Source of the DNA: an uncultured Psychroserpens sp.
Lineage (GTDB): Bacteria > Bacteroidota > Bacteroidia > Flavobacteriales > Flavobacteriaceae
NCBI RefSeq assembly: GCF_947501425.1
Contig: NZ_CANMVN010000004.1
Span: 248,001-312,000 of the forward strand
Length of the DNA stretch: 64,000 bases
Reading direction: 5' to 3'
Positions 54,564 through 64,000 of the stretch are shown one piece after another (positions within the stretch are counted from its first letter, which is position 1; each line of letters begins with the position of its first letter). The notes below the pieces were generated by a model. It made no database searches. It saw nothing but the letters and a program-made list of their open reading frames with translations, and had not been told where the DNA came from. A program made the position numbers and the translations under genes.

Positions 54564-54592
54564 AAAAAAGGCTTCTTTAAAAGAAAGCCTTA
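54564..54592 (-). terminator. Terminator of the eCIS operon
   Basis: Stem AAGGCTT(T)CTTT with its complement (one-base bulge); on the minus strand followed by six T. It is about 170 bases beyond the stop of the AAA ATPase, the last gene of the operon. Confidence 0.7.
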
Positions 54593-54763
54593 CTTTATAC
54601 AGAAGATTTAATTTTTAGAGTAAAAAAATTATGCTACCAAAACACAGTTCTGATAGGACGATTTGTAGCAATTATGTAAATTCCCGTTCTTTTCATTTGT
54701 TTTTTCAAATCTACGCAAATACGCGTTTTAAAAATTAGTGTACAAATCATTTGAATCGTAACG

Positions 54764-56047
54764 TTAATTAGAATTTAATTCAATAAACATACGTTCTTCT
54801 TTTTGGAATTCAATTTTAACAGCTTTCAACACATTGTCTATGCTTAGTACTTTAGTTTGTAGTTCTAAAGCTTGTAAACATGAATATGTCATAGCACTAA
54901 CAATCTGGGCACCAGTTAACTCATAGTTTCTTGCTATTTCGGGAAGCATTGCCTCATCCAAACTCATATGTGTAGGCTTAGCCTTTTGCCATAATTTAAG
55001 TCGCTCATCAGCATTTGGTTTTACAAAGTTTATAATATTATTGAAACGCCTTAAGAATGCTTGATCTATATTATTTTTATAGTTACTAGCTAATATTACT
55101 ATTCCGTTAAAGGTTTCTATTCGCTGCAACAAGTAACTTACACCTTGATTAGCAAAACGATCCTGTGCAGTACGAGTGGTAGATCGTTTACCAAAAAGAG
55201 CATCACCTTCATCAAAAAATAAAATCCAATCTTTATGTTCTGCTCTGGAAAATATTTTTTCAAGATTCTTCTCAGTTTCTCCGATATACTTAGATACAAT
55301 TTGAGAGAGGTCTATACGATACACAGGTTTTTTAAATTCTTTACCGAGTAAAGAAACAGTAAGTGTTTTTCCTGTTCCTGAGGGTCCACAAAACAACGCA
55401 CGATAACCAGGATTAATTCTTTTCTCCAGACCTAGGTCATATCTTAAGGCTTCGTGATGCTTCATCCAAAGTTTAAGTTGTTGTAGTTGGTCTATAGTAT
55501 TTTTTCCTAAGATTAAATCATCCCATTCCATAAGAGTACTAACCTCTTTTGCTGGAAAGCTTGGTCCAAATTGAGGTCTTGAAATTTTTCCATCAACCAA
55601 AAGGCTAAGCGTCTCTGGTGGCAAAATAATCTTACCACTCATAACAGGCATTCCCTCTTTAACATGTTCTATATATAAAATTTGATCTTTATAAAACCAA
55701 TGATCAGGTTCAAAATAGTGTTGAATGGCTGCACGTTTTTGAATATCTAAACCTCCAAGAATATAAAGTATAGTCTCACCTGTTGGCTGCATACTGCGAT
55801 AAGGTTCTGTTTTAACACCTCCCCATTCTGGAAATTCGCCACCATTGGGATACAACTCTTTTATAATAGCATCATAAAATCCTGGTAGTATGTGTGGTGC
55901 TAAGACCATTAACATAATCAGTGATTCTTCGTGTGTAGTATTGCGGTTCAACACTTCCGAAAATGTATTTTGAAAGTTGAATTCTTGTCCGTTTCCTTCC
56001 TTATTGAAGGCTTGTAGGATGAAGTGTTTTAAGTTGTCTAAGACCAT
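54764..56047 (-). CDS. eCIS-associated AAA+ ATPase
   Basis: 427 aa. N-terminal helical region (about 1-170), then an AAA domain: Walker A GPSGTGKT (221-228), Walker B WILFFDEGDALFG (274-286), sensor 1 SNYKNN, arginine finger FLRRF (331-335). It resembles the ATPases always found in eCIS loci (Afp15-like), thought to help assembly or loading. Last gene of the operon, 10 bases after the preceding stop. Confidence 0.88.
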   Translation of the reverse strand: MVLDNLKHFILQAFNKEGNGQEFNFQNTFSEVLNRNTTHEESLIMLMVLAPHILPGFYDAIIKELYPNGGEFPEWGGVKTEPYRSMQPTGETILYILGGLDIQKRAAIQHYFEPDHWFYKDQILYIEHVKEGMPVMSGKIILPPETLSLLVDGKISRPQFGPSFPAKEVSTLMEWDDLILGKNTIDQLQQLKLWMKHHEALRYDLGLEKRINPGYRALFCGPSGTGKTLTVSLLGKEFKKPVYRIDLSQIVSKYIGETEKNLEKIFSRAEHKDWILFFDEGDALFGKRSTTRTAQDRFANQGVSYLLQRIETFNGIVILASNYKNNIDQAFLRRFNNIINFVKPNADERLKLWQKAKPTHMSLDEAMLPEIARNYELTGAQIVSAMTYSCLQALELQTKVLSIDNVLKAVKIEFQKEERMFIELNSN

Positions 56048-56057
56048 AATTTTAGTG

Positions 56058-56744
56058 TTAATTATTCCATTTTGCTTTCGATCTTAAATATGGGGTCAAC
56101 CTTTTGAGTTCTTCTACAGTTCTTTTACTTTTAGGAGTATTACTATCTGAATATCCTTGAATTTGAATTATATCATTTTCGCATTCCTTAACCATGACTG
56201 CAGGAGCCGCTAGAAGATCCTTCTTTCCATATTCATCCAAATACAATGATGGCGCTATAAAATGCATGAATTCAACATACATTCCTCCGAAAGACTTTGA
56301 CGGCACTTTAGTGATTTCATTTTCATAATAAAAGTCTCCTATTTCATTTCCTTTGATTAACTTTATTGTTGCAGTATGAAATTGTGGTAAGGAATTAGCT
56401 AACCGAAGTATATAGCTATTAAGTTCATTATTTAATAGATTTAACGATTCATTTTTGTTAAGATGAAAATGAATCACATTTTTATGTTTAGTTTTCACAA
56501 CACTGATATACTCCTTTGAATCAGGTTTGGAAAACAATCTAAATGACGTCTGTTTCTTCCTCGATAATTGCTTACACAAATCCTCTTTATTAATAGAATC
56601 ATTGTAAGAATACTTTAGTTCATAATCTGCTACTTCAACCTCTATGAATGGGTTATCAAGAATGACACTAATAATTTCATTAAGAACATCTTTATCGTTA
56701 AAATTATCTCTAACATCTACTAAATATAACTCTATTGCTTCCAT
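56058..56744 (-). CDS. Hypothetical protein, candidate immunity or chaperone partner
   Basis: 228 aa, soluble, no signal peptide. Not recognised. C-terminal part has FGGMYVEFMHFIAPSLYLDEYGKKDLLAAP and ends in a basic tail (TPYLRSKAKW). The gene starts 9 bases after the end of the 1277-aa cargo-like protein, the place where immunity genes of polymorphic toxins are found; the sequence also fits a loading chaperone. Neither is shown. Confidence 0.7.
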   Translation of the reverse strand: MEAIELYLVDVRDNFNDKDVLNEIISVILDNPFIEVEVADYELKYSYNDSINKEDLCKQLSRKKQTSFRLFSKPDSKEYISVVKTKHKNVIHFHLNKNESLNLLNNELNSYILRLANSLPQFHTATIKLIKGNEIGDFYYENEITKVPSKSFGGMYVEFMHFIAPSLYLDEYGKKDLLAAPAVMVKECENDIIQIQGYSDSNTPKSKRTVEELKRLTPYLRSKAKWNN

Positions 56745-56753
56745 TTTTAATTT

Positions 56754-59700
56754 TTAAATTCCTGTAAATTCTTTTACAACATTATCTACATCTAAATAAA
56801 ACACTTTAAAAAACTGACTATAATCAGTCCCACTTATCACGTCAAATGCTCTACGAGCTGCAATCAAAGCATCTCCATTAGCTCCTCTAGGTAAAAATAA
56901 GTAATCGTGACCATCTATTCTACTTAAACCAGGCTGAACTGTTTCAAGAGCATTAACTACATCTTGCTGCCCTCTATTAGAGCGTGTAATTAGCTCTCCA
57001 TAATATTGCAATTGTTGTGGGTCAATATTTGTGCCTTCATATCCTGTTTTGATATCTAACGTTCTTGGAGGAGGAATTCTAATTTGATCTGGAATAATAA
57101 ATTTTCTTGCATTAAATCCTTCAACACCTTCAACGGCTATTCTAGGTTGTATTACTCTTGTCTGAGCTTGTAACAAATTCTGTGCTCTTGCAAAATGCTC
57201 TCCAACACTTCCTATTGAGCCAGATTGATCAAGTAAGTCAGTAATATATTTAAAGTCATTAACATCTGTGATTTGCTCTCCAACAAGACGATTAACTCTG
57301 CTAACCACCCTACCTCTAGCATTACTTAGAACAGATACATTTCTTATAATATCTTCATTTAATAATTCATCTAACATTCTATGAATATCAGGAAATCGCT
57401 GAGCTAAGGTATTTGCTTGAAATGCAGCTACTAAACGTGGAGCTGATTCTCGCAACAATAAAAGATTTTTTTGGAAATTGTTTAATTGTAAAAATGAACG
57501 TCCAAAGCGGTTAATTAAAGTTTGACTAGATCTAACTCCTCCATCTATACGTGTACTAAAGTTTAAACCTCTACTTAAATATTGAAGGAAGTTACTTGAT
57601 ACAGGATCTCTAGGTCTTCTTCTTGCAGCTTGCCATGTATCCCAAGCTCTTAATAATGTCTCTGGATCCTCATAATGATCCAGTAGTACTTTCTGGATTC
57701 TCGGATCGGTCAATATTGATTGATAAAGTTGTGGATTACGTGTTGCTATTTGACCTGCATCAATAACGTGTAACACTTCTGGCAATTGGTTTAACCATTG
57801 TGCTCCAACACCAGTATAAAAATCTATAACTGTAGTCAAGTTCTCATCCTGAAGTCGAATTAGTGCGCGAATCAGATTTGGGTTATCCAAAATATTCTGA
57901 CTAATTCTAGCTAAAAGTCCTGTTTGATTTAGTCGATTAAGCATGACTAAGGATTCGGCAAATTCCTCTGTTTGAACCAATGCTCTGGCAGCTTGAGGAT
58001 CTGCTAGCCTTAGTGCTTCATCTGTCGATTGCTCTAACTCATTTATAACTCTCACAGCAGCTGTTTGAATTTCGGTGACCTCCGTTAGAGCCTCACCTGT
58101 TCTCCCTATAGCCCTTATAAGTTTGAAAGCATCAAAAACATCCAATCCAAGACCAAGTAGACTTAATCCAAATCCCCACCAAGAAGCATCAACATTAGTT
58201 AACGAATTAGATGGATCTATTGCAGTTCTATGGGCAGCACTTGTAAAAGATGCTTCTTGATACTGAATTACGGCATCGATAACATTAACAGTAACACTTC
58301 CAGCAAGTGCCACCCAACCAACTGGCCCACTAGCTAAGGCTAATAAGCCTAAGCCTATACCTAGTGCAGCTAGCCATATATCCCTAGCAAATTCACTATC
58401 TCTATGGTCTTGTACAGCATCATTAATCAAGGTATCATGGATAGTACCGTCTTGAATACCTAGTTCGAGTTTGGTTTGTGCAATAACTACATCTAATTCC
58501 CATATATTATTGCTATCTATTGATCCAACAATCTGATCAATATTATTTTTTATATCTGTTGTAATACTACTAATATGAGGAAGCAACCTTGCTCCTAACT
58601 CTTCTGGTTCAAGACTTTCATAAGATGAGGCATGACGCTTGAGCGCTTTATGAAAATCAGGATGAGCTAAAATAGAGAAGTTTGGCGCATGTGCCTCGGT
58701 CAAGTCAAAAGCACGTTGATTAGCATCATAAGCATTAATGAAATGATCATTACCACCACGTCTGCCTGTACCAAACTTATAGTGTTCATAAACCCTTTCT
58801 GCAGCAGCTCTAGGATTCCCTAATGATCCGCCTCCCATTTCAACTCCAGTTACGTGATATGGCATCTCTTCTACAATACCAGCACTTCGCTCTCTTGCTG
58901 CCAAGCTGTAATGAGCTGCAAGTTGTTTGACTATTCTAGACAAACTAAGTAAGCTCTCGCTATTCTGGTACCTTTGACTTTCAATATTAGCGCTCACCTC
59001 GTTACTTCGTAACATTCTTACTGCCACGGTCTGAGCATATCGACCAAATGAATTTTTAAATTCGGTTTCTGATTGACGATAAATACTTAAACTAATTCCT
59101 CGTTCTTGTAATAATCTGTTTCTTTCGGCAATAAGTCGACTCTTCTCTGCTCTTAATTCAATCCTAAGATCTTCTCCACGAACTCTGGGATCATGACCTA
59201 AACTTAGTAACATTATAGTATTCTCAAGCTCACTTATTCTCTTATTTAATTCATAAATAGAATCAGTTCCATAGAGGTCAAAAATACTATCTTGAACTCC
59301 TTCAATTGCAGAGTTTTGTGATTCGTCTCTTGAATTATACCTCCGATCAAAATATTCACCATGTATACTCTGATATAAATCATTACGAATTCTCATGTTT
59401 CTGAAGCCTCTCTCAACATCTAAATCAGTCAAAGGGGTGTAATTGGTAAGATGCCAGTTATGTTCTGTTCTTAATATATCTGCTTCACGCTCAGAAACAT
59501 TAAGCATATGCATTACCGAATTTGTAAAATATGTTCTTCTATCTACAATTCTGTCTATCGGAATCCTAAAAACCAAATACAATTGCCCCTCTCCACTGTA
59601 AGAGGCTGATCTCCTTGAATACGATTGAGTGGTTAACGCACTATCAACAGCTCTTAAGGTAGTGGCGTCTAATCTTCCATGCGAATCTGACCCAATTCCT

Positions 59701-60587
59701 CTTTCTATTTGAAAATTTCTTAAAGCCCTTTCAGTTTCACCTCCAAACTTGCTATCAACACCAAATTCATCCAAAATATAGTTTAATATCACTAGAGCTT
59801 GTTGTAACCTTCCTATATTACTATTATTAGTAAAATTGGTAACTACCCGTCCAGGCTCACTCAAAATTCTTTGAAAATAAGGTGTATTTAGTAATCTGGA
59901 TTGTAATGGAAGCTCATCTATTTGCTCATATTCAAGATCATACTTTTGAATTCTCGTTTTATCTCCTGCGTCTTGTTGAATTGTATGTGTTAGTTCATGC
60001 GCTAATAGATGTTTCCCCGAATGAGAATTAGGATTGTACTTTCCTTCATTAAAATAGATGTCATTACCTACTGTAAACGCTTGAGCATTGAGTTTTTTAC
60101 TTAAATTAATGGCATTAGAATCTGTATGAATACGGACATTGGAAAAATTAGTATCAAAACCACTTTCCATCACATCTTTAGTTTGCTTATCCAATGCTTT
60201 ACCACCACCCTTTGATTTGTAAATTTTACTAGTAATATCATTTGTAGTAGTATGGTCGCTTAAGAGACTTGATGATTTACACTGAATAATTGGTGTAATT
60301 TGCTCTGACAGTGGCTTTTTACGTATACGCTCTTCATCTTCTTCACAATTATTACATTTACGTTGTATTCTTCCAGTAGATGGTATTGGTTTCTCAACTG
60401 CAGTAAGTTTCATCTGGGTTACCTGATCAGCCATTCGATCTGCCTCAACTTCGTATTTATCATCTGACTCACCTATTTCCAGCTTCTCTTGAATGATTGG
60501 AGCAGATTTAATAAATCCTGGCCTTGCTGAAGACAGACCACCATTGGGTATATTATTAATCTTATTATGCTCGTTTGAAAATATCAT
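56754..60587 (-). CDS. Large DUF4157 cargo-like protein with possible nuclease tip
   Basis: 1277 aa, no signal. N-terminal linker with EVEADRMADQV (46-56) and RKCNNCEEDEER; DUF4157/eCIS core domain (about 140-205) with HELTH (197-201); a peptidoglycan-binding-like helical repeat (about 257-318, RNFQIERGIGSD); a long helical middle with two hydrophobic segments (about 735-775, 795-825); and a C-terminal domain (about 1110-1277) with GEHFARAQ and PRTLDIKTGYEG, resembling an E-x-K/D-x-K restriction-endonuclease fold. Probable injected effector; nuclease activity is inference. Confidence 0.75.
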   Translation of the reverse strand: MIFSNEHNKINNIPNGGLSSARPGFIKSAPIIQEKLEIGESDDKYEVEADRMADQVTQMKLTAVEKPIPSTGRIQRKCNNCEEDEERIRKKPLSEQITPIIQCKSSSLLSDHTTTNDITSKIYKSKGGGKALDKQTKDVMESGFDTNFSNVRIHTDSNAINLSKKLNAQAFTVGNDIYFNEGKYNPNSHSGKHLLAHELTHTIQQDAGDKTRIQKYDLEYEQIDELPLQSRLLNTPYFQRILSEPGRVVTNFTNNSNIGRLQQALVILNYILDEFGVDSKFGGETERALRNFQIERGIGSDSHGRLDATTLRAVDSALTTQSYSRRSASYSGEGQLYLVFRIPIDRIVDRRTYFTNSVMHMLNVSEREADILRTEHNWHLTNYTPLTDLDVERGFRNMRIRNDLYQSIHGEYFDRRYNSRDESQNSAIEGVQDSIFDLYGTDSIYELNKRISELENTIMLLSLGHDPRVRGEDLRIELRAEKSRLIAERNRLLQERGISLSIYRQSETEFKNSFGRYAQTVAVRMLRSNEVSANIESQRYQNSESLLSLSRIVKQLAAHYSLAARERSAGIVEEMPYHVTGVEMGGGSLGNPRAAAERVYEHYKFGTGRRGGNDHFINAYDANQRAFDLTEAHAPNFSILAHPDFHKALKRHASSYESLEPEELGARLLPHISSITTDIKNNIDQIVGSIDSNNIWELDVVIAQTKLELGIQDGTIHDTLINDAVQDHRDSEFARDIWLAALGIGLGLLALASGPVGWVALAGSVTVNVIDAVIQYQEASFTSAAHRTAIDPSNSLTNVDASWWGFGLSLLGLGLDVFDAFKLIRAIGRTGEALTEVTEIQTAAVRVINELEQSTDEALRLADPQAARALVQTEEFAESLVMLNRLNQTGLLARISQNILDNPNLIRALIRLQDENLTTVIDFYTGVGAQWLNQLPEVLHVIDAGQIATRNPQLYQSILTDPRIQKVLLDHYEDPETLLRAWDTWQAARRRPRDPVSSNFLQYLSRGLNFSTRIDGGVRSSQTLINRFGRSFLQLNNFQKNLLLLRESAPRLVAAFQANTLAQRFPDIHRMLDELLNEDIIRNVSVLSNARGRVVSRVNRLVGEQITDVNDFKYITDLLDQSGSIGSVGEHFARAQNLLQAQTRVIQPRIAVEGVEGFNARKFIIPDQIRIPPPRTLDIKTGYEGTNIDPQQLQYYGELITRSNRGQQDVVNALETVQPGLSRIDGHDYLFLPRGANGDALIAARRAFDVISGTDYSQFFKVFYLDVDNVVKEFTGI

Positions 60588-60599
60588 TTTGTTTTTTTA

Positions 60600-62141
60600 T
60601 CAATCCATTGCGTCTTCAGCTGAACTTCCTTTCTTTTTACATGAATTCCCTTTATCTAATGCTGTCATACTTTTCCATGTCCCCATTTCCAGATAGTAAA
60701 CTTGACCACCTTTGTAATATCCAGGAAGTCTAGTCTTTTCTTTGGGGTGATATTGTTTCATTGTTGATTTCCAAACATCTATCACTGACTGAACATCGAA
60801 AGACTGGTTTAACAATAATGGTTTGTTTAATGCTTTTATTTTTTTCTGAAAAGTACTTCTAACCTTACCACCTTCTAAAGGCGCAGATTTACGGTACCCA
60901 AGAATGACAGCATTAGGAAAAAGTGGAGCAAAAACTTCAATAGCCTCTTTACAAATAGTAGCACAAGATGTACTTATGATTAGCTTGACACGACTAAAAT
61001 CACCTTTACCTATTAACTTTCGTAAATCAATAAATTGTGTTTGTGTTCCATTTGCAAAAAGTCCTGGATGATTATACTGTGCATATTGATGCCCATAGAA
61101 GTACAAAATATCTGTAGCTTCCATTACAGGAGCTTCTGTTCTAGCTGCGCTTTCGAGTGCAGCAGTATCTAATGTTTTAGGAGCTGCCAAACCTTTTGCA
61201 TCAAAGCTTTCAATTTCAGAAAGACCAAGATTCTTTAACTTTGATCTCCCACCAGAATAATAGCCTGAATACATACCACTATGGCCTCCAAAAGCAGTAT
61301 TAGCTTCTGCCCATATTATTTTACCCTTTTCAGTACTCTGTAGCTTCTTCTTTATCTCTAAAAGCTTTTCGGAGCTGGCACATCTAATAATCCATTTCAG
61401 GTTTTTAATCAAAATTAATTTATCTTCTTTAGTTAAAGAATCAATCTTTGAAACCTGAGTTTCAATTTGTGAAATTTTTTGACTTTCGTTGTAAGTTTTG
61501 CACAAATCATCTTTCTTTTGAATTTTTAGCCCACTCTCCTGCTGGATGGTATGTGTTAATTCATGGGCTAGTAAATGTTTACCCGAATTAGATTCGGGAT
61601 TATACTTTCCCTCATTAAAATAAATATCATTTCCTACCGTAAATGCTTGTGCATTGAGTTCTTGACTTAATTGTTTAGCATTTGTATCTGTATGTAATCT
61701 TACATCAGAAAAGTCCCTGCCAAATCTGTTTTCCATGAAAGATTTTGTATCATTATCCATAGTTGAACCTAACCCCCTTGTTGAACTAATTTTAGAATTC
61801 ACACTATCTGAAGTCATTACTTCATTCTCAGAAGACGTTTGTTTTTTATTAATTAGTGGTGATACTTTTTTATGTAATGCTTTTTTTTGAACCTGTTCTT
61901 CATCACAAGCAGAACATTTTCGCTGTACTAAAGTACTTTTAGATGACTTTGTATTATCTAAATATGATGTATTTACTACTTGATCTGCAACTTGATCTGC
62001 CTCTTTTTCATAAGCGTCATTTTGTGAACCAATAATTAATTTTTTTTGAATTACAGAGGCTGAAATAAATGCTGGCACTTTTTTTAAGTTTGTTGTAGCA
62101 TTAGTTCTATCTTCTTTATTATGAAGTGGTTCTTTACTCAT
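60600..62141 (-). CDS. DUF4157 cargo-like protein with caspase-like C-terminus
   Basis: 513 aa, no signal. Same front as the 1277-aa protein: EKEADQVADQV, QRKCSACDEEQ (Cys76 and Cys79), DUF4157 domain with HELTH at 193-197. The C-terminal half (about 210-513) has ILYFYGHQYAQYNHPG (His351) and LIISTSCATICKEA (Cys393), spaced as the His-Cys pair of caspase/CHAT-type peptidases, with GYRKSAPL following. Likely an injected protease effector; not shown. Gap to the next gene is 12 bases. Confidence 0.75.
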   Translation of the reverse strand: MSKEPLHNKEDRTNATTNLKKVPAFISASVIQKKLIIGSQNDAYEKEADQVADQVVNTSYLDNTKSSKSTLVQRKCSACDEEQVQKKALHKKVSPLINKKQTSSENEVMTSDSVNSKISSTRGLGSTMDNDTKSFMENRFGRDFSDVRLHTDTNAKQLSQELNAQAFTVGNDIYFNEGKYNPESNSGKHLLAHELTHTIQQESGLKIQKKDDLCKTYNESQKISQIETQVSKIDSLTKEDKLILIKNLKWIIRCASSEKLLEIKKKLQSTEKGKIIWAEANTAFGGHSGMYSGYYSGGRSKLKNLGLSEIESFDAKGLAAPKTLDTAALESAARTEAPVMEATDILYFYGHQYAQYNHPGLFANGTQTQFIDLRKLIGKGDFSRVKLIISTSCATICKEAIEVFAPLFPNAVILGYRKSAPLEGGKVRSTFQKKIKALNKPLLLNQSFDVQSVIDVWKSTMKQYHPKEKTRLPGYYKGGQVYYLEMGTWKSMTALDKGNSCKKKGSSAEDAMD

Positions 62142-62153
62142 ACTTCTAAATTA

Positions 62154-62795
62154 TTATTGATTAATTTGACCTGATTCAATAATTAATTGCCTCCTTTTAT
62201 TGACATCTTCTCGTAATTTATCAATTTGTTTAGGGTCAATTATTGGATTATTTTCAAGTTCTTTCATTTTCCTATTCAGCTCTATTTGAAAGTTTTCCTT
62301 ATTCTTATTTAAAACAGGATCTTCGATGATTTTTTTTGTATTTGCCAATTCAATAGTTGCCTTAGCTTTTTGATTGGTACTATCTTTTGTGAGTGCTTCT
62401 TTTGAATATTTAATGGCCTTTGCGTCGTTGCCTACAACATAGTGTGCGTAACCTAAAACTGCATTTTCTTCAGCTGTTTTTGCCTTTTCCGTCGTTTCAA
62501 ATTCACTGATTTTTTTATTTAATATGGTTTTTATTTCATAATTATCCGGACAATATTCAGAGGCCTCAGCAAGTTCTTTAAGCTCTATTAATTTCTTCTC
62601 TTTTTCATATTTAAATAAGCCGAAAACTTCTGCATTTGAAATAGCTGAAAATCCCATCATAAAAAAAGAAATAAGTATGAGCCAAATGGCATTCAAATAA
62701 GGTTTATCCTTTCTTATTAATAAAACAACCAAAGCCAATGCAAACAGAAACAGTATTGATCCTGCGGTTGTAAGTATAATTTCATTTAATTCCAT
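62154..62795 (-). CDS. Membrane protein with TPR-like repeat
   Basis: 213 aa. Two hydrophobic segments (about 8-27 and 34-52, WLILISFFMMGFSAIS), then a soluble helical part with a TPR-like unit (NAVLGYAHYVVGNDAKAIKYSKEAL, about 111-135) and a coiled coil (KMKELENNPIIDPKQIDKLRED). Not recognised beyond this. In the eCIS operon between the CHAP and cargo genes; might tether the particle to the inner membrane. Inference. Confidence 0.7.
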   Translation of the reverse strand: MELNEIILTTAGSILFLFALALVVLLIRKDKPYLNAIWLILISFFMMGFSAISNAEVFGLFKYEKEKKLIELKELAEASEYCPDNYEIKTILNKKISEFETTEKAKTAEENAVLGYAHYVVGNDAKAIKYSKEALTKDSTNQKAKATIELANTKKIIEDPVLNKNKENFQIELNRKMKELENNPIIDPKQIDKLREDVNKRRQLIIESGQINQ

Positions 62796-62806
62796 TTTGA
62801 TTCTAT

Positions 62807-63628
62807 TTAATTGACCCAGTTTTCTATTGAAAACACATCCAGCTTAGATTTTCTAAAATTTCTAACACGCATATAAACCCCATCCCCATTTCTTGACCCT
62901 TCGGTATTTGTATTTCCTTCAATGGTTGTAAAAGTATCTGAATCAACATCAATAATAATAGCAGTATGTGTCCAATCAAGATGAGCCTTTCTTATGAGCA
63001 TAATATCACCTGATTGTATCAAACCTGGATTTTCTCTAATCTTATAATTTCTTATCAATGCGCCAGTTTCCATAGCTCTAACTCCTACGGTATCACAGCT
63101 ATAGGTTAAAGGCATCATTGTCTTGAAATTCTTATCATGCAATGTAAATGCCTGATCAATAATAGCCTGTACAAAGCCCATACACCAGAACCACCATTGT
63201 CCTTCATGCCCATCCATATAACTTCGAACCCATGGGCCAGAATTTGATTCTCCATTTATCTTTAATTCAAAAGGAAGTTCTTCCAGATGTTGACGAGCAA
63301 CCTCAACAATTGTATGTCTCATACTATGGTGCTTCGTTGCCCCTTCAAATGCATTTTTCAAAGGCTTGACCAATTTGTCAAACAGCGATTTAGATACAAT
63401 CCCATTTTGAGTAACACCAATGAAGTTTTGAAAATTTTTGACAGCAATCTCTGTTGCAGGTCCAAAATCACCATCAACTTTTGTCATTGATCCAATACCA
63501 GGATTCATACGTTCTTGAAGACATAACCATGATTGTATTTTTCTTACTTCTTTACGACTATTATTATTCCCATTCTTTCTTTGAGTGTTAGGAATATTTA
63601 ATTCTTTTAGATATTTATTTTTTTTCAT
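62807..63628 (-). CDS. Peptidoglycan-binding and CHAP-type hydrolase
   Basis: 273 aa, no signal peptide. N-terminal PG_binding_1-like domain (about 28-90, VDGDFGPATEIAVKNFQNFIG), then a CHAP/NlpC-type cysteine peptidase (about 105-270) with Cys149 in WWFWCMGFV, His221 in DWTHTAIII and an acidic/amide residue in IEGNTN. Could cut the wall during release of the particle or be an injected lysin. Follows the tape-measure gene by 10 bases. Confidence 0.82.
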   Translation of the reverse strand: MKKNKYLKELNIPNTQRKNGNNNSRKEVRKIQSWLCLQERMNPGIGSMTKVDGDFGPATEIAVKNFQNFIGVTQNGIVSKSLFDKLVKPLKNAFEGATKHHSMRHTIVEVARQHLEELPFELKINGESNSGPWVRSYMDGHEGQWWFWCMGFVQAIIDQAFTLHDKNFKTMMPLTYSCDTVGVRAMETGALIRNYKIRENPGLIQSGDIMLIRKAHLDWTHTAIIIDVDSDTFTTIEGNTNTEGSRNGDGVYMRVRNFRKSKLDVFSIENWVN

Positions 63629-63638
63629 GATCTAGAAT

Positions 63639-64000
63639 TTAATTCCAGTTACAAATTAAATAGTCTTCCATCCACGGGGTTTTTATCATTCCTATTCCCC
63701 ATGGTAATTGATCTAACAGTAGATCGTAACTTTTGTTTTCTACTGTGAGTTCATAGTGTTCATCTTCTCTCAAGGCTAGTTTACCTGATCGCTTAATAAA
63801 ACTTTCCTGCAATCCTGAAACAGAAGTGTTTTTTAGAATTGTCCAATGATTGATAACTGACTGTAGTAAATCCTGACACACTCTTATTTCTATTTGACTG
63901 GCTTCAAACTTAGTTTGAACTGTATCTATAGGGTTAACTCCACAAAAGAGTTTGTTTAAAATCAATTGGTTTTCAAAAATGACCTCTTCAAAACCAACGA
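63639..64000 (-). CDS. Contractile injection system tape-measure protein (C-terminus only)
   Basis: The frame is open through the right edge, so about 120 C-terminal residues are seen. They carry the family end: VINHWTILKNTSVSGLQESF, KRSGKLAL, then ELTVENKSYDLLLDQLPWGI, and IKTPWMEDYLICNW. A TTG at 63965 is internal. In eCIS this protein sets sheath length; its presence fixes the direction of the operon and shows the rest lies beyond this window. Confidence 0.8.
   Translation of the reverse strand, partial: VGFEEVIFENQLILNKLFCGVNPIDTVQTKFEASQIEIRVCQDLLQSVINHWTILKNTSVSGLQESFIKRSGKLALREDEHYELTVENKSYDLLLDQLPWGIGMIKTPWMEDYLICNWN

Follow-up and report, generated by a model that had tools for sequence, protein, structure and literature searches.

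Gene Content of the Cargo End

The right-hand end of the window (the whole stretch of 64,000 nucleotides analysed) raised the question of whether two DUF4157 proteins encoded there are cargoes of an injection particle, what their differing ends would do, and which cells they would reach. All seven genes at this end were encoded by the minus strand, and the successive gaps from the ATPase to the tape measure measured 10, 9, 12, 12, 11 and 10 bp. The features were:

54656-54634 and 54591-54568, minus strand: two terminator-like hairpins 3' of the ATPase gene (2 found vs. 0.2 expected in shuffles)
54764..56047, minus strand: AAA+ ATPase of 427 aa that closes the operon and probably loads cargo (Pfam AAA 6.8e-28; related ORF in most related loci)
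56058..56744, minus strand: orf228, which from its slot 9 bp after cargoA is a candidate for the immunity protein of that cargo
56754..60587, minus strand: cargoA (1277 aa), a DUF4157 cargo whose orphan C-terminus follows a PG-binding domain and a hydrophobic stretch
59964..60194, minus strand: eCIS_core (DUF4157) of cargoA, residues 132-208, HELTH at 197 (Pfam 8.8e-30)
59649..59825, minus strand: PG_binding_1 of cargoA, residues 255-313 (Pfam 4.6e-06)
58260..58379, minus strand: hydrophobic stretch of cargoA, 40 residues, 737-776 (mean hydropathy reached by 23/2000 shuffles)
57000..57200, minus strand: motif run in cargoA resembling PD-(D/E)XK, made up of E1130, P1166-D1167, D1178-I-K1180 and Q1192...Y1196 (post hoc pattern)
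60600..62141, minus strand: cargoB (513 aa), a DUF4157 cargo whose C-terminus is an orphan
61530..61760, minus strand: eCIS_core (DUF4157) of cargoB, residues 128-204, HELTH at 193 (Pfam 3.7e-33)
60963..61091, minus strand: caspase-like motif run of cargoB, H351 ... C393 (post hoc pattern)
62154..62795, minus strand: 213-aa protein with two hydrophobic N-terminal stretches (by eye) and weak TPR similarity (Pfam, under cut-off)
62807..63628, minus strand: 273-aa PG-binding/CHAP peptidoglycan hydrolase-like protein (Pfam)
63639..63998, minus strand: C-terminal part of the tape measure, the whole gene running past the window (CIS_TMP 2.7e-45)

A tape-measure C-terminus, a PG-binding/CHAP protein, two DUF4157 proteins with HELTH motifs and an AAA+ ATPase, on one strand with 9-12 bp gaps and a closing terminator, had been predicted from the letters, and the profile matches, gene coordinates and hairpins agreed with this. 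The 273-aa protein matched PG_binding_1 (1.6e-07) and, slightly below the 26-bit cut-off, CHAP (5.3e-05, 24.1 bits). For the TPR membrane protein also predicted, two hydrophobic N-terminal stretches were seen by eye and the TPR assignment was weak (highest TPR-type Pfam scores 16.7 and 13.5 bits, each below its own 27-bit cut-off). The G+C content of the cargo slot (30.0-37.5% vs. 34.0% for the window) gave no clear sign of foreign origin.

Related loci were taken from the best 80 matches with cargoB as query; 71 named loci plus the present one gave 72 for comparison. Among the matches listed, relatives of the 273-aa protein were found in 21 of the 71 named loci (52-70% identity) and relatives of the 213-aa protein in 2 (L020, 53% identity; L041, 29%). 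DUF4157 proteins of the 71 named loci listed lay mostly between the tape measure and the ATPase, in line with the known association of these three genes in eCIS loci.

Particle Genes to the Right of the Window

The window edge cut through an AlgoCIS-like contractile injection system operon of 19 genes and 26.4 kb on a single strand. Pfam matches identified a sheath gene (Phage_sheath_1C 1.3e-15, Phage_sheath_1 1.6e-08), two gp19-type tube genes (1.8e-42 and 1.1e-31), a CIS_tube gene (2.7e-43), a gp25 baseplate gene (3.4e-24), a spike OB domain (Phage_base_V 1.3e-19), a PAAR tip gene (1.4e-20) and a cap gene (Pvc16_N 1.5e-23), and the whole tape measure (463 aa) matched CIS_TMP at 9.5e-84. The first 771 aa of a 1042-aa ORF of the operon had no informative Pfam match. 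Sheath, tube, spike and baseplate genes, all sought to the right, were thus found; tubes, sheath and cap lay 13.6-17.2 kb beyond the right window edge, within the 25 kb whose lack of sheath or tube genes had been named as decisive against the original prediction. With sheath and tube, baseplate, spike and PAAR, and cap, tape measure and AAA+ ATPase all present, the cluster belongs by predicted gene content to the AlgoCIS-like eCIS, and what lies in the window is the cargo-bearing tail end of a complete cluster for a phage-tail-like particle of this type.

A decayed or silent cluster making no particle was considered most improbable. The distribution was patchy (tape-measure matches in 9 of the 57 genomes searched, own genome included), and two same-genus genomes carried short ORFs resembling the tape-measure C-terminus that stood alone, with no other CIS genes nearby. 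However, the 19 genes were all open and on one strand, with short gaps at the cargo end and terminator-like hairpins behind it. These stand-alone ORFs were also all that was found, in the genomes searched, of the gene set occurring where there is no particle, an occurrence that would have told against the original prediction.

In PDB sequence searches, the sheath had an AlgoCIS chain as its best match (7adz, 1.2e-106), a 1014-aa baseplate protein matched the AlgoCIS Alg12 chain (5e-108) and an 851-aa fibre-like protein matched a chain of one AlgoCIS entry (2.1e-47), so that sheath, Alg12-type baseplate and fibre-like protein all resembled AlgoCIS; the fibre-like protein was shorter (851 vs. 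1443 aa). Sheath and 1014-aa protein were about equally close to the Anabaena system (8.1e-105 and 4.8e-129, respectively). A machine that is not released, anchored in a membrane of the cell as in T6SSiv or the Anabaena thylakoid system or acting at the death of the producer, could accommodate these matches, along with the hydrophobic N-terminal stretches of the 213-aa protein and the peptidoglycan hydrolase-like protein in the operon. AlgoCIS, equally close, is nevertheless described as unattached in the cytoplasm and as compatible with an extracellular mode of action in the available text of PMC8894135. The 213-aa protein is also ill-suited as a structural anchor, since its relatives were so rare among the named loci listed. 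An unreleased machine was therefore regarded as unlikely.

Cargo Organisation

CargoA and cargoB shared 54% identity over 195 aa of their N-terminal parts, with none reported beyond. Nothing else in the 3.70-Mb genome matched eCIS_core with E <= 0.001. With an eCIS_core N-terminal part, a differing C-terminus and a gene in the particle operon, both class, as predicted proteins, as DUF4157 cargoes of the Cgo/EAT type. In AlgoCIS of Algoriphagus machipongonensis, two DUF4157 proteins, Cgo1 and Cgo2, fill the tube and are lost on contraction, and the locus tags make their genes direct neighbours close to an end of the cluster (both from the available text of PMC8894135). Compared by the description there, Cgo1 and Cgo2 resemble the present pair in having similar N-termini and different C-termini. 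The cargo end of the present operon differed in also holding the 228-aa gene and the peptidoglycan-hydrolase and membrane-type genes. eCIS-associated toxins (EATs) have an N-terminal DUF4157, a long linker and a C-terminal toxin, and are encoded at eCIS operon ends (PMC8213781 and PMC11297309, as far as available); cargoA and cargoB were similar in the position of both DUF4157 and gene.

The claim that two effectors are carried by a flavobacterial injection particle gained support from the complete set of predicted particle genes and the Cgo1/Cgo2-like organisation, and an injection system with two cargoes is very highly probable; that the host is flavobacterial was judged from the named loci nearest to the present one. 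DUF4157 proteins that are instead accessory or structural, or that act within the producer and are not injected, would fit a domain whose function is given as unknown in the available text of PMC11297309 and PMC8213781, and the HELTH zinc motif of both proteins could serve inside the cell. This was judged very improbable, because AlgoCIS provides a direct precedent for DUF4157 cargo (PMC8894135, available part) and because C-terminal parts falling in many clusters behind an N-terminal part that is alike suit cargo and not structure.

Large cargoes (at least 1000 aa) numbered 62 in the 72 loci among the matches listed. A 40-residue stretch with mean hydropathy of at least 1.2 was present in 44 of these 62, many of which are related to each other (16.0 expected in shuffles, maximum 23), and in 3 of 99 small cargoes; a role in translocation would be a guess. 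A membrane-crossing segment at a looser threshold was found in 51 of the 62 large cargoes and still in 41 after one shuffle, so that this count was not telling and was set aside. The motif GRPxxVVxxPLT was rejected as a general junction for swapping C-termini, since the 5 large cargoes of the 62 that had it all belonged to one C-terminus cluster.

C-Terminal Parts of the Cargoes

Both cargo C-terminal parts were without detected homologues, a feature that the original prediction had not remarked on. The last 186 aa of cargoA were found in the own genome only among 395 genomes of the phylum, as were residues 330-1277 among 397 genomes of the family. The C-terminus of cargoB was likewise confined to the own genome among the 397 family genomes, and cargoB matched only its own genome among 395 genomes of the class, apart from one weak match in G1047 (E 5.5e-4, 66 residues, three internal stops) that was rejected as chance. 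Viral contigs contained no homologue of either C-terminus; matches in plasmid records fell in the N-terminal part, and none covered 80% of either query. In lacking a detected homologue in the genomes searched, the C-termini set the present cargoes apart from those of AlgoCIS. Neither C-terminus matched a Pfam or NCBIfam profile (over cut-off for cargoA), and PDB sequence searches returned nothing convincing for either.

PD-(D/E)XK nucleases have catalytic motifs in the order E, PD, (D/E)xK, QxxxY. The same order was found in residues 1130-1196 of cargoA (pattern written post hoc; matched by 2-3 of 20000 shuffles), and a PD-(D/E)XK nuclease, read by eye from the motifs, is a somewhat likely identity for its C-terminus. 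The AlphaFold model of the last 190 residues, from the single sequence, was unusable (mean pLDDT 34.7).

In caspase-like (clan CD) peptidases a His and a Cys each follow a hydrophobic strand. H351 and C393 of cargoB may form such a run (pattern written post hoc; matched by 1 of 20000 shuffles), and the chances that its C-terminus is a caspase-type peptidase, again a reading by eye of motifs, may be put as even. The single-sequence AlphaFold model of the whole of cargoB was unusable (mean pLDDT 39.8). Loose versions of the caspase-like and PD-(D/E)XK patterns hit five of 167 cargo ORFs (L022, L046, L071, L084 and L031), which looked like chance and were discarded; with tighter patterns, 1 of 646 other ORFs matched, a cargo (L031).

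The Gene Following the Large Cargo

CargoA was directly followed by a small gene, orf228; cargoB had no immunity-like neighbour. That the slot of this small protein behaves like an immunity-gene slot had escaped the original prediction. Among the matches listed, 47 of the 62 large cargoes had an unassigned or orf228-type ORF at most 100 nt downstream, and 15 did not. The last 150 residues of the cargo and the next gene were compared across these 47 pairs of genes, giving 1081 comparisons that are not independent. In these listed loci, similar C-termini went with similar next genes in 51 of 51 comparisons, and with dissimilar C-termini the next genes were similar in 14 and dissimilar in 1016 of 1030. 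The 51 concordant similar pairs compared with at most 13 in 10000 shuffles, and all 9 C-terminus clusters with several members each fell within a single next-gene cluster. For cargoes whose backbones shared 70% identity or more across 300 aa, C-terminus and next gene were both similar in 25 pairs, both different in 89 and discordant in 2. At E < 1e-3, 24 pairs had unlike C-termini and similar next genes, and one pair the reverse. As controls, the ATPase was similar in 946 of 946 pairs regardless of C-terminus, and the CHAP gene in 113 of 120, the latter being the less clean control because the best match per locus was used and need not be CHAP (the sole match of L087 was a cargo ORF). That the next gene covaries with the large-cargo C-terminus in related loci is a new result.

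Large-cargo C-termini had matches to nuclease toxin families. Of 20 pairs scanned one at a time, 3 had a toxin family and an immunity family that both exceeded their Pfam cut-offs: AHH with Imm11 (L025), Endonuclea_NS_2 with SUKH_6 (L057) and Ntox15 with Tdi1_C (L055). Twelve of these 20 next genes matched no family. Tde1/Tdi1-type (Ntox15) proteins are a toxin-immunity pair of the T6SS; the same slot thus holds a pair of those families in L055, although neither cargoA nor orf228 matched them. The next gene of L044 was an N-acetylmuramidase and not an immunity protein, and that of L066 was alike.

orf228 itself matched no Pfam or NCBIfam family over cut-off, immunity families included, and had relatives only in the own genome among 23 genomes of the genus and only in the own locus among 87 loci. 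The covariation is a result for the slot; neither the C-terminus of cargoA nor orf228 has a detected homologue. As orf228 fills a slot that covaries with the cargo C-terminus, it was interpreted as the immunity protein for cargoA, a likely reading. BaCT, a Bacteroidetes polymorphic toxin, carries its PD-(D/E)xK DNase C-terminus behind various N-termini, DUF4157 being one of them, and the gene of its immunity protein BaCTic follows directly downstream (PMC7073777, available part). The predicted arrangement of cargoA is alike, in a comparison by description only; unlike cargoA, BaCT is not placed in an injection-system operon in the part of PMC7073777 available. Toxin-immunity pairs are demonstrated for some EATs, such as EAT5 (PMC8213781 and PMC11297309, available parts), and the missing immunity genes beside most tested EATs are called puzzling by Geller et al. 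(PMC8213781, available part). Large cargoes of the present loci, among the matches listed, differ in usually having a covarying next gene.

The covariation would equally be expected if the next genes, with orf228 among them, encoded cargo-specific chaperones or adaptors that fit each C-terminal part for loading, in which case the particle could target eukaryotes and need no immunity. Strong TPR proteins made up 7 of the 47 next genes and others had ankyrin, leucine-rich or propeller repeats, which are general protein-binding folds, and the missing family match of orf228 suits this as well. Against it, the same slot held Imm11, SUKH and Tdi1-type immunity families beside recognised toxins, SMI1_KNR4 occurred in 4 of the 47 next genes, and the C-termini matched nuclease toxins; a chaperone was given a low probability.

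With orf228 as immunity protein, the N-terminal 210 or so residues common to both DUF4157 proteins would serve as a loading module, the adjoining AAA+ ATPase would help to load the cargoes into the tube, and sheath contraction would deliver both. The C-terminal parts would be the active ends, a caspase-type peptidase in cargoB and a PD-(D/E)XK nuclease in cargoA, from which orf228 would protect the producer; a need for immunity implies that the targets would include bacteria. This explanation as a whole, an AlgoCIS-like system loading and delivering two such cargoes, was considered quite likely.

A wider reading is tentative and somewhat short of an even chance. The Bacteroidota particles of this group would be antibacterial to a considerable extent, their large DUF4157 cargoes being polymorphic toxins (nuclease-type where recognised) with an immunity slot just before the ATPase, and their small cargo having no immunity gene and other activities, often of the peptidase type. 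CargoA and orf228 would then be a pair from an undescribed toxin-immunity family, and cargoB would be a caspase-like effector of a kind undescribed in these systems. A slot that tracks the cargo C-terminus and has known immunity families among its occupants gives a handle on which cells most such particles hit. The present genome contributes a candidate immunity protein and two C-terminal domains, all three lacking known relatives.

In two same-genus loci, L089 and L090, eight non-cargo genes were 93-99% identical and the cargo stretch past the tape measure differed; a 304-aa next gene accompanied a 1439-aa cargo in L090 only.

Operon and related systems

The original prediction had assigned the genes at the window's right end to an injection particle carrying two effectors. 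Its structural part was borne out when the contig (C4) of the 3.70 Mb genome (G000) was read on beyond the right edge of the window (G000:C4:248001-312000): sheath, tubes, spike and baseplate-type gp25 were found, with sheath and tubes 13.6-16.5 kb past that edge. The operon comprised 19 genes, all on the minus strand, and spanned 26.4 kb (C4:329163 to C4:302764).

Genes of the operon, in order
16.5-17.2 kb right of the window edge, minus: cap (Pvc16_N; Pfam), first gene of the operon
14.6-16.5 kb right of the window edge, minus: sheath (Pfam)
13.6-14.5 kb right of the window edge, minus: two gp19-type tubes (Pfam)
Right of the window after the tubes, in this order, minus: CIS_tube, spike (Phage_base_V), PAAR, gp25 (Pfam)
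Between gp25 and tape measure, minus: ORFs of 1042, 1014, 851 and 179 aa
Thereafter, minus: tape measure (CIS_TMP) and, inside the window, CHAP protein, 213-aa protein, cargoB (513 aa), cargoA (1277 aa), orf228 (228 aa), ATPase (Pfam)

A response-regulator-like ORF with a LuxR-type C-terminus (by eye; L004:9522-10166, plus strand) was divergent from the cap gene, and is possibly a regulator of the operon.

In a PDB sequence search, the sheath matched chains of AlgoCIS, the Algoriphagus machipongonensis system (1.2e-106), and Anabaena All3325 (8.1e-105); the 1014-aa ORF matched All3315 (4.8e-129) and Alg12 (5e-108), and the 851-aa ORF matched All3314 (1.2e-44) and a chain of 9wt0, the PKD protein beside Alg12 (2.1e-47). 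The 179-aa ORF had no match in this search. We read the 851-aa ORF as a putative fibre-type protein because of its two matches and because excerpts of PMC8894135 and PMC8894136 list a fibre-type gene without AFP homologue for both systems. Judged by the sheath, 1014-aa and 851-aa matches, the system resembles AlgoCIS and the thylakoid-anchored system of Anabaena about equally, and the particle may be either released or anchored.

Survey of related loci

A search with cargoB matched 299 stretches, of which 140 encoded a relative; the best 80 of these 140 gave 71 named loci, with Flavobacteriaceae strongly represented. Length was the sole criterion for calling ORFs, and no gene finder was used. 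In many loci the tape measure was followed by a small cargo, a large cargo, a small unassigned ORF, in some cases CHAP, and the ATPase. Counting the own locus, there were 62 large (at least 1000 aa) and 99 small (300-999 aa) cargoes, and HELTH was present in 160 of 169 cargo ORFs. A next gene lay within 100 nt after 47 of the 62 large cargoes (46 unassigned ORFs and orf228); behind the remaining 15 came CHAP in 6 cases, a further cargo in 4, the ATPase in 2, the stretch end in 2 and a far ORF in 1. An unassigned ORF lay within 150 nt behind just 29/99 small cargoes, and the 213-aa type behind 1/99. Seven DUF4157 cargo ORFs, far above the usual two, stood behind the tape measure in one stretch of Aureisphaera galaxeae (L018).

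Covariation of cargo end and next gene

For these 47 large cargoes, all-against-all comparisons (1081 pairs) were made of the final 150 residues and, separately, of the next genes. At E < 1e-5, C-termini were similar in 51 pairs, and next genes were similar in all 51; among the 1030 pairs with unlike C-termini, next genes were unlike in 1016 and similar in 14. None of 10000 shuffles gave more than 13 joint matches (51 observed). Pairs similar jointly, in next gene only and in C-terminus only numbered 51, 24 and 1 at E < 1e-3, and 49, 6 and 0 at 1e-10. The ATPase, as control, was similar in 946/946 pairs. The pairs share descent and are not independent, which is addressed in part by the cluster count (9/9 C-terminus clusters with at least two members each fell within a single next-gene cluster) and the same-backbone count: among pairs whose backbones shared 70% identity or more across 300 residues, both were similar in 25 pairs, both different in 89, and the next gene only similar in 2. 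By these last counts, cargo end and next gene are swapped jointly on one backbone.

Between two loci from other genomes of the window's own genus (L089 and L090), eight non-cargo genes were 93-99% identical and one cargo 87%; behind the tape measure, L089 had a single 2870-aa cargo, whereas L090 had cargoes of 969 and 1439 aa and, behind the 1439-aa one, a 304-aa ORF without match in L089. The end of the 1439-aa cargo was HNH-like by eye. A ParA/MinD-like ATPase of 253 aa (by eye, first residues) was also observed in the cargo slot of both (L089:5925-6686, L090:6167-6928 (-); 98% identical).

Families in cargo ends and next genes

At Pfam E ≤ 0.01, the 47 large-cargo C-termini matched Tox-REase-7 (3 members), Endonuclea_NS_2 (2), AHH (2), and Ntox15, RNAse_A_bac, Endonuclease_NS and HNH_2 (1 each), with four without toxin sense; next genes, among the matches listed (25 of 96 families), included TPR proteins (7) and SMI1_KNR4 (4). 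One member may match several families in these counts and in those for the small cargoes below. Of 20 pairs scanned singly, over cut-offs, 4 C-termini had a nuclease toxin family, 4 next genes an immunity family, and 3 pairs both; 12 next genes had no family match.

Families in singly scanned pairs (C-terminus; next gene)
L025: AHH; Imm11 (over cut-offs)
L057: Endonuclea_NS_2; SUKH_6 (over cut-offs)
L055: Ntox15; Tdi1_C and GAD-like (over cut-offs)
L042: without family; SUKH-1
L071: Tox-REase-7; without family

One of the 20 next genes (L044:15834-16673) was a PG-binding N-acetylmuramidase (2.9e-62), a wall hydrolase near the ATPase unlike the CHAP protein of other loci; the next gene of L066 was similar. 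The 99 small-cargo C-termini matched PG_binding_1 (23), PG_binding_3 (11), Aspzincin_M35 (7), OmpA (6), further peptidase families with one or two members apiece, and a nuclease family once (1/99).

Candidate immunity gene

The slot was occupied by orf228, 9 bp behind cargoA and 10 bp ahead of the ATPase. Since no family exceeded its cut-off (best DUF6246, 0.011-0.016, below the DUF6246 cut-off) and no relative was found in the genus genomes or related loci searched, orf228 was judged from slot position to be a probable immunity protein. The part of the literature searched yielded no paper that describes a covarying immunity slot for eCIS loci of this kind. Three papers hold close precedents for a toxin with an immunity gene: DUF4157-BaCT has an immunity protein downstream (PMC7073777), EAT5 has an antitoxin (PMC8213781), and a review says in general terms that effector genes of eCIS are combined with immunity genes (PMC12961389).

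The two DUF4157 cargoes

CargoA followed the large-cargo plan in size and in having eCIS_core, a PG-binding domain and a hydrophobic stretch (equalled in strength by 23/2000 shuffles); its residues 330-1277 had no relative among 397 family genomes. At its end stood E1130, P1166-D1167, D1178-x-K1180 and Q1192...Y1196 (pattern set post hoc; matched by 2-3/20000 shuffles), in the motif order of PD-(D/E)XK nucleases. At the cargoB end, H351 and C393 each stood behind a hydrophobic run (pattern set post hoc; 1/20000 shuffles), an arrangement reminiscent of caspase-like peptidases. Profile and PDB sequence searches supported neither the nuclease nor the caspase-like reading, AlphaFold models of cargoB and the cargoA end were too poor for use, and neither end was filed, from its motifs, as a member of these families.

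CargoA and cargoB were 54% identical over 195 residues near the N-terminus, with no alignment reported past that, and both had eCIS_core with HELTH. Cgo1 and Cgo2 of AlgoCIS have the same build (similar N-termini, eCIS_core type). According to PMC8894135, nearly all wild-type AlgoCIS tubes were filled (~96%), whereas most tubes of the cgo1/cgo2 double mutant were empty (~93%); Cgo1 and much of Cgo2 were gone from contracted particles. PMC8213781 describes DUF4157 as a mark of eCIS toxins, whose toxin domain is C-terminal and sometimes set off by a very long linker. Payload loading in PVC through an N-terminal signal requires the ATPase Pvc15 (PMC11495950, in part); by analogy, the AAA+ protein of this operon may load the cargoes likewise. 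Between N-terminus and DUF4157 domain, both cargoes (56754-62141) had a CxxC pair (QRKCNNC, QRKCSAC), possibly a second metal site; a similar pattern occurred in 86/169 cargo ORFs of the surveyed loci.

CHAP and 213-aa genes

Relatives of the CHAP protein (52-70% identity) occurred in 21/71 named loci, mostly beside the ATPase or tape measure, and the cargo ends around them were unlike; speculatively, the protein may act in release or in passage through the wall. The 213-aa protein had relatives in 2/71, adjoining CHAP in one (L020).

Distribution

The system was patchy, which counts against the main reading: tape-measure matches occurred in 9/57 genomes, own included, among them 5/22 other genus members, two of which had short C-terminal pieces only. 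At L094 the tape measure adjoined the ATPase with no cargo between, and at L093 the queries matched neither cargo nor ATPase, so the slot was not filled in every such cluster. Other particle and cargo queries had no match in ~20 kb around the stand-alone ORFs of L095, L096 and L097. Such ORFs of 172-177 aa, in the same-genus genomes G010 and G005, matched CIS_TMP in its C-terminal part alone (6.3e-62 to 1.5e-55); one reading had two internal stops.

Stand-alone CIS_TMP C-terminus ORFs
L095:1463-1996, plus
L096:18259-18777, minus
L097:18269-18802, minus
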